Source: a virus. From it: 29,986 nucleotides of DNA. The translations under genes were made by a program, and so were the position numbers. The number at the start of each line of letters is the position of its first letter. Position 1 is the first letter of the stretch. The stretch is from positions 1-29,986 of the IMG/VR virus record IMGVR_UViG_3300021961_000421. One strand, written 5' to 3'. The notes beneath the pieces were generated by a model. It did no database searches. It saw nothing but the letters and a program-made list of their open reading frames with translations, and had not been told where the DNA came from. Of this stretch, positions 5,095 to 14,226 are shown one piece after another.

Positions 5095-5854
5095 TTGGAT
5101 TATCTTTCCATATATTTAATTTTTCTTTTAAATCTTCAAAGCTGTTAAAGTTTTCAGGTTTAAAAGTTGGATAAGAATTACCTAAAGCGCATGAATCTAT
5201 AACTTTAAATGCGCCTTCGAAGTTCTCTTTATAAAGATGTCTACTACCAGCATTATTAGTAAGCATTCCTAATTTAAGATTTTTACCATGAATTTCTCTC
5301 ATTAGGAGACAGACAGATAAACCGACCATACTAAAATTAAAGTTATCGTAAGGCCAACCGAGCCATATATCATTACTTCTCATAGTAGCAATAACATATA
5401 AAGTATCTCTTCGAACTAAAAACTGTAAAGATAAAGTACAAGGAATATCTTTCGATACCGGTGGTTTTTCACGCCATATATTTATACAAGCTTGACGAGT
5501 ATCTATATCGTAATTTAAAGCTTTACAAACATAAGGTAATTGATCTACGATCTTAGGGCCGTAGGCTCCGAAATAAAATACTCCGTCATCACTAAATCTT
5601 TTAATAACATTAGAGTAAGGTTTAATAGTTGATACTCGATTATCACCTGATAATATCCAGTGCGCTTCAGCGAACATAAACTTATATCCTAAATCTCTTT
5701 CTGGTATCGTAACGATAGGCGAACCCATATCGCATCTAGTCGTGTGTCCTATAATTTCTTTCGTAAACATACCACGAGGGTCTGCTCCGAATCCTCTATC
5801 TTCTACTTCATCAAGTAGATTGCGATAGACTTCATTAGCATGATTCATTGGCAT
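5075..5854 (-). CDS. Thymidylate-synthase-family enzyme with dCMP-hydroxymethylase signature
   Basis: The fold is clearly the thymidylate synthase family: catalytic Cys139 in IPCTLSLQF, Arg120 (phosphate) and RS at 159-160. But the specificity residues follow T4 dCMP hydroxymethylase (gp42), not TS. Thr140 replaces the His after the catalytic Cys. The motif is MRSND (158-162). Asp170 (in GWPYD) stands where TS has Asn177, the residue that selects dUMP over dCMP. G203-S-R-H-L-Y208 matches gp42 GSLHVY rather than TS GDTHLY. Inferred reaction: hydroxymethylation (or methylation) of dCMP using methylene-tetrahydrofolate. A plain thymidylate synthase is the fallback. Start ATG at 5854 has an AAAGGA site; it overlaps the zinc-ribbon gene upstream by 20 bases. 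Confidence 0.85.
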   Translation of the reverse strand: MPMNHANEVYRNLLDEVEDRGFGADPRGMFTKEIIGHTTRCDMGSPIVTIPERDLGYKFMFAEAHWILSGDNRVSTIKPYSNVIKRFSDDGVFYFGAYGPKIVDQLPYVCKALNYDIDTRQACINIWREKPPVSKDIPCTLSLQFLVRRDTLYVIATMRSNDIWLGWPYDNFNFSMVGLSVCLLMREIHGKNLKLGMLTNNAGSRHLYKENFEGAFKVIDSCALGNSYPTFKPENFNSFEDLKEKLNIWKDNPSEFFTA

Positions 5855-6020
5855 TGCTTTTTTCCTTTCTATCTACTAATTCAATATCGTCTAGTTTACA
5901 ATTTTTACAGTAATAAGTTCCGTCCCTCCAATAGTCATCGTAAACAAGTCTTTTAGAGCGACAACATGGACAACGTCCATCATCTGATTCGTTGTCGTAG
6001 TCATTCATAGGATAGTCCAT
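5835..6020 (-). CDS. Zinc-ribbon micro-protein, 61 aa
   Basis: Two Cys knuckles, C17-P-C-C20 and C38-K-N-C41, flank a short beta-rich region (RLVYDDYWRDGTYYC), the form of a single zinc ribbon. The N-terminus (1-15) is strongly acidic and the C-terminus is polar. Such ribbons bind nucleic acid or partner proteins; nothing here tells which. The start at 6020 has one of the best ribosome sites of the region (GAAAGGAGAAAGT). An internal Met5 is a less likely start. It lies between the kinase and the TS-family gene. Confidence 0.75.
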   Translation of the reverse strand: MDYPMNDYDNESDDGRCPCCRSKRLVYDDYWRDGTYYCKNCKLDDIELVDRKEKSNANESC

Positions 6021-6032
6021 ACTTTCTCCTTT

Positions 6033-6584
6033 CTATGGTCTTAATCTATCTATTATTTTATCTAAAATATCTTTATCAGTAAACCGATCATATCGTATAA
6101 AGTCATCTTTATCTTTTAATGGTTGTATCTCTTTTAAGAAGTTACTAGGGCCATTATAAGTACCGTACCAATGATCGTAGTATCTTTTAACTACATTCGA
6201 TATATCATGATACTCTTCATGTCTTTCTTCTCTTCTAGTTTTATGTTCTTCAATCAACCTTTCATAATCTTCTGGTACTGCCCATATATAAAAAGCTTTA
6301 TATCTTTTAAGCCAATGATATATTATTTCAGGATAATAACTAGGACCAGGTGCTCTTTCATAAGAATAGATTTGCTCACTTGGCCAATGTCGATCAAGTA
6401 TAACTAAATAATCTTTTGATAATCGAATCGCTCTTCTTGCAGTAGCGCAGTGCCACTTTTCCATTTCTTTATGCACTCTAAGATGCATATAGCGAGTTTT
6501 AAATAACCAATGTTCTCTTATTTTATTTATTAATGTAGTCTTACCAGCACCATCTGGACCTTCTACAATTAATATTCCGTTCAT
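6033..6584 (-). CDS. P-loop deoxynucleoside monophosphate kinase-like protein
   Basis: Walker A GPDGAGKTT (9-17) and D64-R-H-W-x-S69, the equivalent of the DR(Y/H)..S motif of thymidylate kinases, put it in the TMK-like P-loop kinase group. At 183 aa it is slightly short. A basic stretch HKTRREERHEE (133-143) fits a lid region. The likely job is phosphorylating dTMP or another (possibly modified) dNMP, as T4 gp1 does for hydroxymethyl-dCMP. Related P-loop kinases in hypermodified phages phosphorylate bases in DNA instead, so that is an alternative. It starts by ATGA overlap with the glycosyltransferase-like gene. Confidence 0.78.
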   Translation of the reverse strand: MNGILIVEGPDGAGKTTLINKIREHWLFKTRYMHLRVHKEMEKWHCATARRAIRLSKDYLVILDRHWPSEQIYSYERAPGPSYYPEIIYHWLKRYKAFYIWAVPEDYERLIEEHKTRREERHEEYHDISNVVKRYYDHWYGTYNGPSNFLKEIQPLKDKDDFIRYDRFTDKDILDKIIDRLRP

Positions 6585-7621
6585 AATAAATCTATTATAA
6601 AGTTTTTTAATTCCTCTTTAGACCAGAATATATCTTCATAATCTAATAATTGTTTATTTCTATATTCTTGCATTTCACTATCGCTCATCATCTCAATTTC
6701 TCTTCTTGATTTAACTCTATCCTCAAAGAATATAGATAGTTCTGTAGGATCGCCTACTGTAATACATTGAGCATCTCTAACCATTCCATATCGTACTCTC
6801 CACCAACCACTCTTTTTTAAAGTATGATAATGAGGTGGTACTAATACTCCCCATGATTCTTGATAGATTTTATATAGTTCAGGTTCACTAATTCTTTCCT
6901 GTCCTAAATTTTTATTTCCATAAGCTTGTACAGGCCAACCGCCAGGTGTTCTTTCTAGCCAACCTGGTTTTTGTATAAGAGAAGCATAGACCCATTTTTT
7001 TTCTTTGTTTTTTATTTCTGTCAGTGCTGCCTGACTAAATAGATCGGTAGGTGCTTCCATGTAGGAATCACAAATAGGAGTAGGATCCCATGCAATTAAT
7101 TCTTTCGCTTTTATACCTAATACTTCAATATTACCAGTTCTATACACTGGTGCAAGACATCTGTAAGGCCATTCTTCAAATCCCATTGTAGAACATAGGT
7201 CGTTTAGTTCTTGTTTAAAGTTAAGTGCTTGATCGTAGTATCGTTTCTTCATAGGAGCACCAGACTTTGTTTGCGTTTTCCATAAACGCCAATGGCCTTC
7301 TCTTGCAAATGTAGCGAAACCAGAAGGTACGTCTTTAGTTTGCCAATCGTCAAGAGCACAAATAGCATCGGGTCGTTTAGCTAAAGTGTACATAGCGCCA
7401 TAAGTATAAGCACTTGGTAAACTATTAGGTGGAAACATAAATACAAATACATGATCGTATTCCGATACATCGTCACCAGGTATAATTGGTTTTTGAATTA
7501 CTTCATGACCAGCCATTTCTAAAGCTATGGGAAGTAGATTTGCACTAGTAGCAATTCCTAATTTATTATCACCACTACCAATTCCTTTGGCAGTAAATCC
7601 AGTTATTAAGACTTTTGCCAT
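6581..7621 (-). CDS. Predicted GT-B glycosyltransferase (possible DNA-base glycosyltransferase)
   Basis: 346 aa with a two-lobed layout. The N-terminal half starts MAKVLITGFTAKGIGSG, with a Rossmann-like pattern of strands (YDHVFVFMF, 55-63; DAICALDDW, 85-93). The C-terminal half has a strand (KKWVYASLI, 208-216), GYxxK-type loops (GWPVQAYGNKN, 228-238) and the donor-site-like SGWWRVRYGMVRDAQCITVG (271-290), in which a helix ending in a small/acidic turn precedes a strand. That order, plus a C-terminal helical tail, is like T4 beta-glucosyltransferase and other phage GT-B enzymes; sequence identity is low. The neighbours (TS-family enzyme, kinase, MazG, UDP-sugar enzyme) favour a nucleotide-sugar-using DNA modification role. 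It overlaps the MazG gene start by 16 bases. Confidence 0.5.
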   Translation of the reverse strand: MAKVLITGFTAKGIGSGDNKLGIATSANLLPIALEMAGHEVIQKPIIPGDDVSEYDHVFVFMFPPNSLPSAYTYGAMYTLAKRPDAICALDDWQTKDVPSGFATFAREGHWRLWKTQTKSGAPMKKRYYDQALNFKQELNDLCSTMGFEEWPYRCLAPVYRTGNIEVLGIKAKELIAWDPTPICDSYMEAPTDLFSQAALTEIKNKEKKWVYASLIQKPGWLERTPGGWPVQAYGNKNLGQERISEPELYKIYQESWGVLVPPHYHTLKKSGWWRVRYGMVRDAQCITVGDPTELSIFFEDRVKSRREIEMMSDSEMQEYRNKQLLDYEDIFWSKEELKNFIIDLL

Positions 7622-9108: not shown

Positions 9109-10622
9109 TAAATTGGGTAACTGTATAATCCTTGAGGATTAACTATAAATAAATTATTTTTTGCTCTTGTAATTCCTACATAAAATACTCTATGTTCATC
9201 ATCAGATTGTTCATTAATATTTTTCCATGTCGCATACGATACATCTGTAAGAAGCATTACATTTTCAGCTTCAGCACCTTTACTTCCATGTATGGTACTT
9301 AATCGTATTCTCGGTTCATTATAAAATAAATCACCAGTCTTTTCTAAAGCTTGATAATAATACTTATCTTCATCAGGAATCATTCCTAGTATATCTTCCC
9401 ATTTTCCTTCTGCAGTAAGACCATGATTTTCTTTTAATTCTTTATATGTATAAGTTTTTTCTTGATCTAACGAATTACAGTTTTTATATCCTCTTGTAAT
9501 TCCTTCACCCGTTCTAATACAACTATATAATTTTGTAATCGAATCATAAGGCACTTCCTTGCCTTCTACTAAATCTAACCAAGTTCTAATCGCAACGACA
9601 TGTTTATTCGCTTTAAATCCACCAAATTTTCTTTCAAATACATATCCTTTTTGCTTTAGATATTTTTCAATCGGATATAACTGATAATTATTTCTAGCTA
9701 AGATCAACCAACTTCCTTGAGACATATCTGCATATTCATATGATTCAATATAATTTACTGATCCCTGTTCCTCTGAACTAGACCAATCTTTATCGTATCT
9801 ATTCATAATTCTTTTTGTAACTTGATTCGCTAAATCAAAAACACGTTTCTTTAATCGATAAGTAAACGGCAGTATTCGAATCTCACCATCAAGATTTAAA
9901 AAAGTATCTACGTCAGCTCCTGCCCATTTATAGATTGCTTGATCATCATCTCCTGCTATATAAATAGTTTTAACGGATTGAGATAACTTATCAATTACTT
10001 TCCATTGTAGTTTTGTTAAGTCTTGTGCTTCATCAACAAATAAAATATCAATATCAGGAGTGTATTCAGATTCTAAAAAAGAACTTAACATATCAGTAAA
10101 GTCAAGAAGGTTTCTTTTTAATTTAAAATCAACTAATGTATCGGAAAATAATTTCTGCTCTTCCCATGAATAATCACATTTTAATTCTCTCCATGTATCT
10201 TGAAGAGGGCACATCTTTGCCCTAGCTAACTGATCGCAAAATAACATACGATCTCCTAAACTTGCTCCACTATTAACTATCTGTTCTTCATCTACATCAC
10301 CTGTCATATCGATTCGTAGAATCTTTTTAAATTCAGTGACGTGACTTCCTTTAAATATTCTTTCGCTATTAAGACCTAATGATCTAAAACATAAACTATG
10401 AAGTGTTCTAAAATAATCTAATTGATCTTTATCAATCTCTTTGAATTTTTCTAATGTTCTATCTCTCGCTTCTTTAATCGCTCTGCGTGTAAATGATACA
10501 AATCCAATACGTTCTGGTGCTATACCACTTTCTATTTCTTCTTCTAGAATATTTAATAATGTAGTGGTTTTACCCGTACCAGGTGGCCCTAGTATTATTT
10601 TAGTTTTATCCTTCGATAGCAT
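9108..10622 (-). CDS. UvrD/Rep-like superfamily 1 DNA helicase
   Basis: ATP-dependent helicase, 3'-5' by family. Motifs in order: Walker A GPPGTGKTT (12-20), Ia FVSFTRRA (41-48), Walker B VDEAQD (196-201), III GDDDQAIYKWAGA (224-236), IV TYRLKKRV (254-261), V ending in STIHGSKGAEAENV, and VI VGITRAKNNLF near the C-terminus. At 504 aa it is shorter than UvrD (about 720), with reduced 1B/2B regions as in phage versions. It may be the replicative or recombination helicase, as no DnaB-type gene is seen. It overlaps the UDP-sugar enzyme gene by 17 bases and has no clear ribosome site of its own. Confidence 0.92.
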   Translation of the reverse strand: MLSKDKTKIILGPPGTGKTTTLLNILEEEIESGIAPERIGFVSFTRRAIKEARDRTLEKFKEIDKDQLDYFRTLHSLCFRSLGLNSERIFKGSHVTEFKKILRIDMTGDVDEEQIVNSGASLGDRMLFCDQLARAKMCPLQDTWRELKCDYSWEEQKLFSDTLVDFKLKRNLLDFTDMLSSFLESEYTPDIDILFVDEAQDLTKLQWKVIDKLSQSVKTIYIAGDDDQAIYKWAGADVDTFLNLDGEIRILPFTYRLKKRVFDLANQVTKRIMNRYDKDWSSSEEQGSVNYIESYEYADMSQGSWLILARNNYQLYPIEKYLKQKGYVFERKFGGFKANKHVVAIRTWLDLVEGKEVPYDSITKLYSCIRTGEGITRGYKNCNSLDQEKTYTYKELKENHGLTAEGKWEDILGMIPDEDKYYYQALEKTGDLFYNEPRIRLSTIHGSKGAEAENVMLLTDVSYATWKNINEQSDDEHRVFYVGITRAKNNLFIVNPQGLYSYPI

Positions 10623-11556
10623 TTCTAAAGTACTCTATCGTGCTATCTAATCCTTGGTTTAAATTTATTTTAGGAGTCCAACCTAAATATTCTTCAATCT
10701 TTTTTATATTAGGTTTTCTATGCATTGGATCGTCTGGTGAAGGCGCATCGTTTTTCCAACCAGGTGCGTCAGTCTTTTCAGCTATTACTTCTGCTATTTC
10801 TAATATGGAATAACGATCAGGATTTCCTACATTAAATATTTCTTTAAATCCACTTTCACAGATTCGAATCAAACCTTCTATTGTATCATCAACATAGCAG
10901 AATGATCTAGATTGAAAACCTCCGCCATATATGATAAGATGATTGCCTTTTAAACCTTCCGTAATAAAGTTAGATATAACCCTACCATCATTAATCGCCA
11001 TATAAGGGCCATAAGTATTAAATATTCTCGCTATTGATATATTTGCATCTAATTTTCTAATTGATTCATAAATTAAAGCTTCAGCAACTCTTTTACCTTC
11101 ATCATAACAAGCACGAGGACCATAAGAATTTACATTTCCCCAATACGTTTCTTCCTGTTCTTCTACTTGAGGATCACCATATACTTCACTTGTTGAAGCA
11201 TGAAGCATTCTAACTTTTCCTTGTTCCATTGAATATTGAATAACATTCTTCGTTCCATTATAGCATACCTCTAAAGTAGAAAATGGATGTGCTTTATAAT
11301 GATCTGGTGATGCAGGACATGCTAAGTTATAAATATAATGAATACCTTTTCTATTATGATCTCTTAATAGCATAGATAAATCTTCTTTTATTATATTTGC
11401 TTCATAGAAACTGTAATTCTCATGATCTAAAATATTAGACTCACTTCCTGTTAAATGATTATCTATACCAATAACATAGTATCCTCGTTCTAATAAAGTT
11501 TCACATAGATTTCTTCCTAGAAATCCTGTGGCTCCTGTTACAACTACTCTTTTCAT
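10606..11556 (-). CDS. UDP-glucuronate decarboxylase (UDP-xylose synthase), SDR family
   Basis: Converts UDP-glucuronate to UDP-xylose with NAD+. TGATGFLG (7-14) binds NAD. The UXS-specific signature LACPASPDHY (78-87) is present. The catalytic region STSEVYGDP (121-129) has Thr122 and Glu124, and the pair is Tyr151-x3-Lys155 in ACYDEGKR. ARIFNTYGP (176-184), NDGRVISNF (189-197) and SRSFCYVDD (216-224) match the UXS group closely, better than dTDP-glucose dehydratases or UDP-glucose epimerases. 316 aa is full length for the bacterial form. It starts by ATGA overlap with the exonuclease. A phage copy suggests need for a pentose donor for DNA, capsule/LPS or virion glycosylation; the glycosyltransferase-like gene 3 kb downstream is a candidate user. 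Confidence 0.88.
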   Translation of the reverse strand: MKRVVVTGATGFLGRNLCETLLERGYYVIGIDNHLTGSESNILDHENYSFYEANIIKEDLSMLLRDHNRKGIHYIYNLACPASPDHYKAHPFSTLEVCYNGTKNVIQYSMEQGKVRMLHASTSEVYGDPQVEEQEETYWGNVNSYGPRACYDEGKRVAEALIYESIRKLDANISIARIFNTYGPYMAINDGRVISNFITEGLKGNHLIIYGGGFQSRSFCYVDDTIEGLIRICESGFKEIFNVGNPDRYSILEIAEVIAEKTDAPGWKNDAPSPDDPMHRKPNIKKIEEYLGWTPKINLNQGLDSTIEYFRNAIEG

Positions 11557-12335
11557 TTTTCTGCCATTCTCCTAATAATGTTCATTTGTTTATCGGAGAT
11601 CATAACTTTCTCTTTGTACTTCTCTATTCTTTCTTCTTGATCTTTGAGAAAATTACTCTCCCATTCGCTTATATTATCTCTATTTATAGAAGAAATTAAA
11701 CCAGTTAATTCTTCATAATCGTCATTATTCATTACTTTTAACAACTTTTTAGGAAGTTGTCGTGGTTCTTTTAATTCAATTCCTTGATTTTTTAAATGAA
11801 AATAGATAATTCTACATACTTGAACGTCAACTAAAGCATCGTGCCAATCGAAATATCCTACATTAAAAAAGTGTTCATACGTTTCAATTAATTTAGGAAA
11901 CTTATAATCATCAAAATCACTTTCTAATTTTAAAATATCTTTCGTGCTCATCATAGTACAGTGTAAGTCTTTTGGTTGTCTAAAAGGTTTTTTAAGGTAA
12001 TGAAAATCTCTTGCAATTATTTGCAAGTCAAAAGCTAAGTTATGAGCCACCAATGTATGCGCTGAAGCTGCCATAGAATTAAAAACAGAAAGGGCACTAA
12101 TAAGAGGTACGCCATAATTAGTTGCTTTCTCATTGGAGATTCCATGTATTTCTTCAGCATCTTTAGGTATCGTCCAACCTTCTGGTTGAATAAGCATTGA
12201 GTATTGATTAACAACTTTTTCATTATTATCTACTAACTGTGCAGCTATTTGTACTAAGTGTGGTTGATTTAAATCAGTAGCCTCTAGATCACGGCGCCAC
12301 AAGCCGTTTGTTTCTGTGTCAAAAAATAAATACAA
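11553..12335 (-). CDS. DnaQ-like DEDDh 3'-5' exonuclease
   Basis: Exonuclease residues are D6-T-E8, D103 (in HNLAFD, 98-103), and H165 with D170 (HDALVD), the DEDDh set of the DnaQ/RNase T group. The nuclease domain fills about residues 1-180; residues 180-260 are helical and highly charged, perhaps for partner or DNA binding. As the polymerase already has its own proofreading domain, this separate nuclease more likely degrades host DNA or processes ends. It starts with TTG at 12335, five bases after GGAA. An ATG five bases upstream is out of frame, and no in-frame ATG precedes the catalytic D6. Confidence 0.85.
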   Translation of the reverse strand: MYLFFDTETNGLWRRDLEATDLNQPHLVQIAAQLVDNNEKVVNQYSMLIQPEGWTIPKDAEEIHGISNEKATNYGVPLISALSVFNSMAASAHTLVAHNLAFDLQIIARDFHYLKKPFRQPKDLHCTMMSTKDILKLESDFDDYKFPKLIETYEHFFNVGYFDWHDALVDVQVCRIIYFHLKNQGIELKEPRQLPKKLLKVMNNDDYEELTGLISSINRDNISEWESNFLKDQEERIEKYKEKVMISDKQMNIIRRMAEK

Positions 12336-12348
12336 AACATTTCCTTTC

Positions 12349-12435
12349 TTATTCTAGACATTCACATTCGTTAATATCTAATTGACAAACAGGGCAGATA
12401 TTAGGATCCAATACCCCAATATCGAGAGTGTTCAT
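12349..12435 (-). CDS. Cys-rich micro-protein, 28 aa
   Basis: MNTLDIGVLDPN is followed by C14-P-V-C17 and C24-E-C26, then Leu-Glu and stop. Four Cys in 13 residues form a minimal zinc-knuckle pattern. It fits exactly between the 46-aa basic protein gene and the exonuclease ribosome site, on the same strand, with a weak AAAGAAG ribosome site. It is too short for statistics; the Cys pattern and fit into the operon are the support. Confidence 0.5.
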   Translation of the reverse strand: MNTLDIGVLDPNICPVCQLDINECECLE

Positions 12436-12440
12436 CTTCT

Positions 12441-12581
12441 TTATTTCTTTTTAGTTTTTTTAGAAGATGCTTGAGCCTTTTTAAAAGCTTCTTTAGTAGG
12501 CGCACCTTTTGCTCCTTTCTTTCGCATCTTTTCTCCACGCTTTCTTTTAGCATGAATATTTGCCCACAAACCTTTTTTCAT
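12441..12581 (-). CDS. Conserved small basic phage protein (GLW..IHAKR type), 46 aa
   Basis: The sequence pattern KKGLWANIHAKRKRGEKMRK, then GAKGAPTKEAFKKAQ, is one I recognise from small proteins in many marine and other phages and some bacteria, where GLW-NIHAKR, GEKMRKxGxKGAP and a final AF..AQ are fixed. The function is unknown. Nearly every third residue is Lys or Arg, so it may bind nucleic acid. This copy lacks the short IKAGS-like insert usual before GEKMRK and has a Lys-rich tail (KKTKKK). It starts by ATGA overlap with the metallothionein-like gene, behind AAGGA. Confidence 0.82.
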   Translation of the reverse strand: MKKGLWANIHAKRKRGEKMRKKGAKGAPTKEAFKKAQASSKKTKKK

Positions 12582-12724
12582 TTCATAATCCTTAGTGATA
12601 CTCCTGATACTGCTACAACAGCATCTTTTTTAGGTTCACAATTTTTACAATTACAATTTGCACATTCGCACATGCAACTTGAATCTTTATGGCAAGGACA
12701 GCCACATCTATTGCATTTTTCCAT
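12578..12724 (-). CDS. Metallothionein-like Cys-rich protein, 48 aa
   Basis: Ten Cys fall within residues 4-29: C4, C7, C9, C11, C17, C19, C21, C24, C26 and C29, plus His12, in CxxCxCxC and CxCxCxxCxCxxC runs, with almost no aromatic or large hydrophobic residue there. That composition is typical of metallothioneins, which bind Zn, Cu or Cd in thiolate clusters. Residues 30-48 form a plain tail (EPKKDAVVAVSGV). The start overlaps the primase stop as TAATG and the end overlaps the next gene as ATGA, so it is embedded in the operon and expressed with replication genes. Possible jobs: metal buffering, zinc supply to the phage zinc proteins, or redox protection. It is not a known zinc-finger family. 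Confidence 0.75.
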   Translation of the reverse strand: MEKCNRCGCPCHKDSSCMCECANCNCKNCEPKKDAVVAVSGVSLRIMK

Positions 12725-14226
12725 TAGAAAGTTATATCGTCAATTTGAGGCTTTGTAAATTCTTCTTCTTGTCTTTCAAATTTAGCCATAGACCATAGAT
12801 TTACGTGCTTTCCTTTAATTTTTTTAGTTAGATGTTCAGCGCCAAATTCTTTTAAATGAGCAGTTACTTCGTGGAGTTTAAATTCTTTGAATCTATGTTT
12901 CTCAAGAAATTCCATAAAATCATTAATTCTAAACATAGTAGTACTATCTACTGTAACAGCGTGACCTCGTAAAATATCTTCTACTATATCAGAAGAAGTA
13001 GAGCCGGTGCAAAATCTTTCACAAAGTTCTAGTAATCTTCCTTTATTTGAACTATCAGAATTAACTTCAACAATCTCCATTTTTTCCATTAATTCATTAA
13101 TCGTTTCAAGCCATAATGGTTGTGCTACAATAGGCATTAAAGTATTCATATTTTCAAATACAACTCTTTGGAAATTTTTTTGATTAATAATTTCTAAACT
13201 ATCGATCGGTCCAATTCTATGATCGTTTACTGTAACAAAATAAGTTGGAGGATCAGTATTAATCTTAGTAATTCCACTAATAGCAGGAAGATTTCCATGG
13301 TCACTTATACCAAATTTACAAGTTAGACAAACTGGTTTATTACAGAAAGCATTAATAGGTTGCTCTGAACACATATAATTGTAATCTTTTTTCTCTAATG
13401 ATTTAATAACTGTTTGAACTTCTTTTGATCTTAATGGAGGTTCTATATATTTATGATTATATTCTTCAATCTTTACTTCCCATTCGTCAGGATGTGCTTT
13501 CTTTAAATATACTCCAATGTTATATAAAGAATTATTTCTAGTACCTTCTGGTATACCATTCTGTAATAAATACTTTAAACAAGGTGGACCATCAGGTAAT
13601 AGTTTCTTATCTTGTTCTTTTAATTGCGGAATTTTAATTTCATCAACACTATCAATCTTTCGAATGTCAGCTAATTTAATGAAATCTTCTGGATTAGTAA
13701 TATGCTCTCCATTATAGATAGCATATCGTGTAGTTCTTTTGCCACCAAAATAGGGCATATTAATCCAATTTCCTACATCACCACGATCAGTAACTAGTTT
13801 TATTTGTTTAGGAAATATTTCAGCACTAGGTTTTCCTAAAGCTGATGTAATTTCTCTTAATTTAGTAACTACTAATTTAGCAGATATTGCTTTTTTGAAG
13901 AATACATATAGATGTATTCCACCAGATTTTGTTAGACAAGGTATAAAAGGGGATGTTCCTAGGCTCTTTGATAATGTATCTACGTCTAAATCGTATTCAT
14001 CAATATCAATCGCTCCCCATAAAACTTTTGCATCATCACGAATAGGGACTACACCAAGGCCTTGCGTTCCTTCAAGGTGTAGTTCCCACTGCTGTAACGT
14101 TAGCTTTTCAGCTATTGTTCTTGCTGTACCAGACCGCTTTACGCCAGATTGATCTGTATCTAAATCATATCTGCCGTAAGCACGGTCTAAACCACTAAAT
14201 AAATTATAAAAATCCTGCGCTAGCAT
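12724..14226 (-). CDS. DNA primase, archaeo-eukaryotic (AEP) type
   Basis: Makes primers for replication. AEP catalytic motifs: D74-x-D76 (GAIDIDEYD), S101-G-G-x-H105 (TKSGGIHLYVFF), then SAEIFPKQ (134-141) and NWINMPYFGG (153-162), the order seen in TOTE-like and other phage/plasmid primases. Residues about 222-305 look like a PriCT-type region (GIPEGTRNNSLYNIGVYLKK) followed by four Cys (286, 295, 300, 303), a probable zinc or Fe-S site. The C-terminal third is helical and unassigned. No helicase domain is fused, so a separate helicase must act with it. It starts in TAATG overlap with the SSB-like gene. Confidence 0.82.
   Translation of the reverse strand: MLAQDFYNLFSGLDRAYGRYDLDTDQSGVKRSGTARTIAEKLTLQQWELHLEGTQGLGVVPIRDDAKVLWGAIDIDEYDLDVDTLSKSLGTSPFIPCLTKSGGIHLYVFFKKAISAKLVVTKLREITSALGKPSAEIFPKQIKLVTDRGDVGNWINMPYFGGKRTTRYAIYNGEHITNPEDFIKLADIRKIDSVDEIKIPQLKEQDKKLLPDGPPCLKYLLQNGIPEGTRNNSLYNIGVYLKKAHPDEWEVKIEEYNHKYIEPPLRSKEVQTVIKSLEKKDYNYMCSEQPINAFCNKPVCLTCKFGISDHGNLPAISGITKINTDPPTYFVTVNDHRIGPIDSLEIINQKNFQRVVFENMNTLMPIVAQPLWLETINELMEKMEIVEVNSDSSNKGRLLELCERFCTGSTSSDIVEDILRGHAVTVDSTTMFRINDFMEFLEKHRFKEFKLHEVTAHLKEFGAEHLTKKIKGKHVNLWSMAKFERQEEEFTKPQIDDITF

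Follow-up and report, generated by a model that had tools for sequence, protein, structure and literature searches.

We analysed a 29,986-nt stretch of viral DNA (positions 1 to 29,986 of IMG/VR record IMGVR_UViG_3300021961_000421; herein the window), in which a short, cysteine-rich open reading frame (ORF) lies on the minus strand within a replication operon, directly behind a primase gene. The features of the locus, in window coordinates, are as follows:

12724..14226, minus strand: archaeo-eukaryotic-type primase (AEP-TOTE + PriCT_1, phrog_21866), upstream of the Cys-rich ORF
12578..12724, minus strand: metallothionein-like ORF of 48 aa (10 Cys, 1 His), supported by its translation, orthologues and dN/dS
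12638..12715, minus strand: Cys-rich core of that ORF, C4 to C29, CxxCxCxCHx4CxCxCxxCxCxxC, with 11 putative metal ligands
12581..12637, minus strand: C-terminal tail of that ORF, motif KD-xx-VxVxGVSL, also found in a microprotein without Cys that a sister lineage encodes at this locus
12441..12581, minus strand: basic ORF of 46 aa (phrog_16028), downstream of the Cys-rich ORF with a 4-nt ATGA overlap
12349..12435, minus strand: ORF of 28 aa with CPxC...ECxC, sequence MNTLDIGVLDPNICPVCQLDINECECLE
11553..12335, minus strand: RNase_T / DNA polymerase exonuclease subunit, the next large gene of the operon

The Cys-rich ORF is translated (12724..12578, minus strand) as MEKCNRCGCPCHKDSSCMCECANCNCKNCEPKKDAVVAVSGVSLRIMK, and residues 4–29 of the 48 hold all ten cysteines and the single histidine in CxC and CxxC spacing. 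Its ATG shares 1 nt with the primase stop codon (TAATG) and its TGA stop shares 4 nt with the ATG of the ORF at 12581..12441 (ATGA), so that the ORF is probably coupled in translation to its neighbours. In the window it lacks a strong ribosome-binding site, and AGGAG-like sites are found in several relatives. Translation and coordinates bear out the preliminary description of this DNA, which had reported ten Cys and one His with CxC/CxxC spacing and overlaps on both sides. Metallothioneins are proteins of low mass with about 15–35% Cys; the window protein consists of 21% Cys (10/48) arranged in CxC/CxxC arrays and, as expected of a group with few or no aromatic residues, contains none. The downstream 46-aa basic protein (12441–12581, minus strand) contains GLWANIHAKRKR...GEKMRKKGAKGAPT, and the phrog_16028 motif also matches parts of larger phage families of unknown function (phrog_11180, 22379, and 11470).

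The ORF is retained wherever its primase is closely conserved. Among 80 primase-bearing viral contigs, nine loci encode a full-length primase with 90% or greater identity to that of the window; in all nine the Cys-rich ORF follows the primase directly, and five distinct versions of it occur (one identical to that of the window). The four distinct divergent orthologues in this position all retain the ten Cys and the His, TGT/TGC switches are seen at Cys codons between relatives, and pairwise dN/dS among the window and three relatives is 0.16–0.31. Within the Cys domain dN is 0.06–0.13, and in the comparisons with the window (0.12–0.13) synonymous sites are near saturation. By these comparisons the ORF is under purifying selection and, on the sequence evidence, is a real phage gene. 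Composition points the same way, as the window reaches ten Cys per 30 residues versus at most eight (typically five) in 400 dinucleotide-preserving shuffles, and conservation is the stronger of these two arguments against a chance ORF.

Beyond this locus, we collected at least 104 distinct proteins of the same family from uncultured viral contigs. The DNA pattern for CxxCxCxCHx4CxC is present in at least 119 viral stretches, mostly in small ORFs with the core CxKCxCxCHxxxTCMCECAxC, and all convincing matches to the C-terminal half alone (CMCECAxC) also have the N-terminal half, including His12, with a two-residue insertion in one subtype; neighbourhoods anchored on the portal gene added a subtype whose second half contains CGCVGC. 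Positions C4, C7, C9, C11, H12, C17, C19, C21, and C24 are invariant among aligned members, the non-Cys residues E20 and A22 are conserved at 90% or more, and the window protein fits the family core (CxxCxCxCHx4CxCECxxC) with 11 ligands. The preliminary expectation that relatives would share the Cys pattern is therefore upheld, at the same place by the four divergent orthologues and more widely by about 100 further phage proteins. The 104 collected members are 30–71 aa long (median 47) with a median Cys content of 25%, and 81 of them lack aromatic residues; short length, high Cys, and few aromatics across the family are metallothionein traits. Many members also bear an N-terminal arm with four extra Cys (MCQGCDC..DC or MCEGCD.LC.KC), a number that could hold one extra tetrahedral site.

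The number of putative ligands is nearly constant, and their positions are not. Cys and His in the core sum to 11 in 92 of the 104 members, to 12 in 11, and to 10 in one. With positions 13, 26, and 29 left free in the search pattern, 74 members have Cys13 and lack Cys29 (position 26 being His in 70, Cys in three, and neither in one), the remaining 30 lack Cys13 and have both Cys26 and Cys29, and none mixes the two sets. Neither set is confined to a single genomic context: Cys13/His26 is found in contigs L226 and L223, and Cys26/Cys29 in L245 and L213 as well as in the window. Shared descent is a caveat: each set may represent one old lineage, so the absence of mixed members overstates the number of independent events. 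The M4Cys11 cluster of the mammalian (animal) alpha domain and the Zn4Cys9His2 cluster of cyanobacterial SmtA use 11 ligands each, and this shared count favours an M4 cluster in the phage family. Metallothioneins hold several d10 metal ions in a thiolate cluster, and the nearly constant ligand number would be an indirect sign of such binding.

Profile searches of Pfam, PHROGs, and NCBIfam returned no significant match for the members tested. The prokaryotic metallothionein profile (PF02069, SmtA/BmtA) did not match the window protein up to E = 1 or any of 24 members up to E = 5, a search in which the HMMER bias filter disfavours such composition, and no solved metallothionein chain in the PDB matched at E ≤ 1, the top hit being a short chain at E = 2.4. 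We rejected as chance a Pfam z-alpha match, a Metallothi_Euk2 match of one member (E = 0.026, chance level), and a match to PDB chain 8bvc. The strict pattern has zero matches in 84,980 prokaryotic species genomes; the looser-pattern prokaryotic matches, among the matches listed, are almost all low-complexity CHCH-type or long frames and were set aside.

In most relatives the Cys-rich gene resides in a late or structural module, near holin, portal, GroES, and capsid genes ("holin" being our reading of a short membrane protein, phrog_2524, to which PHROGs gives no function). Three arrangements recur: portal, holin-like gene, Cys-rich gene, often a methyltransferase, GroES, and then capsid; lysozyme, holin, small ORF, and Cys-rich gene; and a membrane-type protein of 75–80 aa, Cys-rich gene, and phrog_28122. 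Where at least 1 kb of sequence follows the portal gene, 36 of 41 neighbourhoods carry a member, located 388–857 nt after that gene (26 of the strict and ten of the CGCVGC type). The window lineage is the exception, with its gene in the replication operon, and the family behaves like a module that has changed place. Because most relatives are in late or structural operons, the role of the family is not tied to replication enzymes, and the proposed connection with a zinc-using primase and deaminase finds no support; since the neighbours differ between contexts, they do not constrain the cellular function.

Sister phages (L011–L020; primase identity 64–65%) encode, directly behind the primase at about 6500–6658, a Cys-less ORF that begins KDVVVKVKGLSV; this Lys/Glu-rich microprotein of 52–53 aa has an N-terminus (KDVVVKVKGLS) that aligns with the C-terminal KDxxVxVxGVSL of the window family (E = 4e-4 in a single comparison). 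The Cys motif has no match in seven contigs of these sister phages, including two that exceed 61 kb. In a 61-kb relative (G001), a second pattern match is antisense to a structural gene and was discarded as chance. The Cys domain was either gained ahead of the tail by the window lineage or lost by the sister phages, and gain is favoured because bare Cys domains are widespread elsewhere.

We hypothesize that the ORF encodes a metallothionein-like phage protein that would bind about four metal ions in a cluster and act as a metal buffer or sink during infection, a reading to which we assign a probability of roughly 0.68. The Cys-rich core (ten Cys and one His, 11 ligands) would fold around about four divalent ions, presumably Zn2+ in the cell and replaceable by Cd2+ or Cu+, making the protein a small intracellular metal-thiolate buffer or sink; metal binding, cluster stoichiometry, and the buffering role are all predicted from the ligand pattern, and the role as a zinc or copper sink is a working hypothesis. 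The window lineage carries this Cys domain ahead of an older VxVxG tail in its replication operon, and most relatives have a bare domain, or one with the four-Cys arm, among late genes. The preliminary description had likewise called the protein metallothionein-like; this much stands, with a Cys pattern conserved as a family, and the accompanying link to zinc-using replication enzymes does not.

The known systems offer partial parallels. SmtA/BmtA (Metallothio_Pro) proteins are likewise small and Cys-rich, with CxC motifs and one or two His, and the phage subtype with nine Cys and two His has the ligand set of the SmtA Zn4Cys9His2 cluster; however, the phage ligands are packed in 24–26 residues, with no Pfam match among the 24 members. 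SmtA has a longer zinc-finger-like insert and aromatic residues, both missing from the phage core. The animal alpha domain (M4Cys11) shares the 11 ligands and CxC-rich character, most phage members being likewise free of aromatics, but the phage core is a single domain with a different spacing and never lacks His. Small phage zinc-ribbon or zinc-finger proteins are also phage-encoded Cys proteins in operons, but have some four Cys, arranged as paired CxxC, instead of 11 packed ligands. One such ORF in the window encodes a 61-aa zinc-ribbon-like protein (CPCC...CKNC; 5835–6020, minus strand) with weak family matches, flanked by thymidylate synthase on one side and a kinase on the other.

The foremost alternative, which we consider unlikely, is a small structural zinc domain (a finger or adaptor) in which Zn serves folding and the protein works through a protein or nucleic-acid partner, for example in replication or head assembly. 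Fusion to a conserved tail that stands alone in sister phages suggests a binding partner, the strong conservation of E20 and A22 speaks for this alternative, and the neighbours are head-assembly (portal, GroES, and capsid) or replication genes. Ordinary zinc fingers use four to eight ligands, however, and 11 ligands in 26 residues exceed what is usual; a hydrophobic or aromatic core is almost missing, and the domain occurs alone in proteins of 30–40 aa in several unrelated contexts.

We regard thiol redox chemistry or protection against copper and oxidants, with the cysteines scavenging Cu+ or reactive oxygen as host metal pools are freed near lysis, as improbable: a late-operon position next to holin and lysozyme genes, as seen in many relatives, would suit it, but the nearly fixed 11 Cys and His and the conserved His point to defined metal coordination. 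It is very improbable that the apo-protein instead strips a host enzyme or defence protein of its Zn2+ or Cu+, the gain to the phage being depletion itself (counter-defence or host takeover). Retention in 36 of 41 portal neighbourhoods of one clade and absence from the corresponding regions of cultured relatives fit a host-dependent accessory function, but no defence-related neighbours were seen, and the late-gene location in most relatives is late for counter-defence. That the ORF is a chance Cys-rich frame, as its shortness and lack of a family database match might suggest, is refuted by conservation and has a negligible probability given purifying selection, synteny, a family of 104 proteins, and shuffles that never reach ten Cys in 30 aa.

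The contigs are termed marine here because they resemble pelagiphages as well as other phages from the sea, and because their names probably derive from marine sample sets. A tblastn search of cultured phages with the window protein and its orthologue from L005 found no match, which is weak negative evidence, since queries this rich in Cys may be masked by the low-complexity filter. We therefore inspected the sequence around the portal and primase genes in relatives that are cultured or named (HTVC023P, HTVC027P, 023Pt_psg01, and DSL-LC04) and saw no Cys-rich ORF of this type there. As cultured HTVC023P-type pelagiphages and their relatives are without the gene in these regions, its function probably depends on host or habitat. 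The main text of a study on HTVC023P-type phages mentions neither metallothionein, cysteine, nor zinc (PMC9599517). In the open-access literature covered by the search, we found no report of a phage-encoded metallothionein.

Taken further, we consider it an even proposition that these proteins form a virus-specific metallothionein family, absent from sampled prokaryotes and nearly fixed in one uncultured marine phage group, in which an 11-ligand M4 cluster would have been kept through ligand exchange, one lineage would have moved into the replication operon and joined an older microprotein, and metal control would be phage-encoded. If metal is bound as proposed, common marine phages would govern intracellular Zn or Cu during infection, and lysis may release protein-bound metal clusters, which would matter for trace-metal cycling. 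The family would also give bioinorganic work a set of naturally occurring 11-ligand clusters that differ by ligand swaps, and it exemplifies how phage genes below 60 codons, even near-core ones, escape annotation.

Other observations concern small Cys-rich ORFs and the remainder of the operon. In an Erysipelotrichaceae MAG (L273, 2355–2576, minus strand), a 73-aa ORF with 17 Cys (KCECEDCSCGCHEGKACTCKDEKCTCGCGDDCKC) has partly similar spacing and is possibly a bacterial metallothionein-like protein. The replication operon of the window includes an NAD-dependent epimerase/dehydratase gene (10606–11556, minus strand) whose position is kept in relatives. The 28-aa ORF at 12349–12435, absent from the relatives L004 and L005 and present in L003 and L009, is possibly a minimal zinc-binding peptide.
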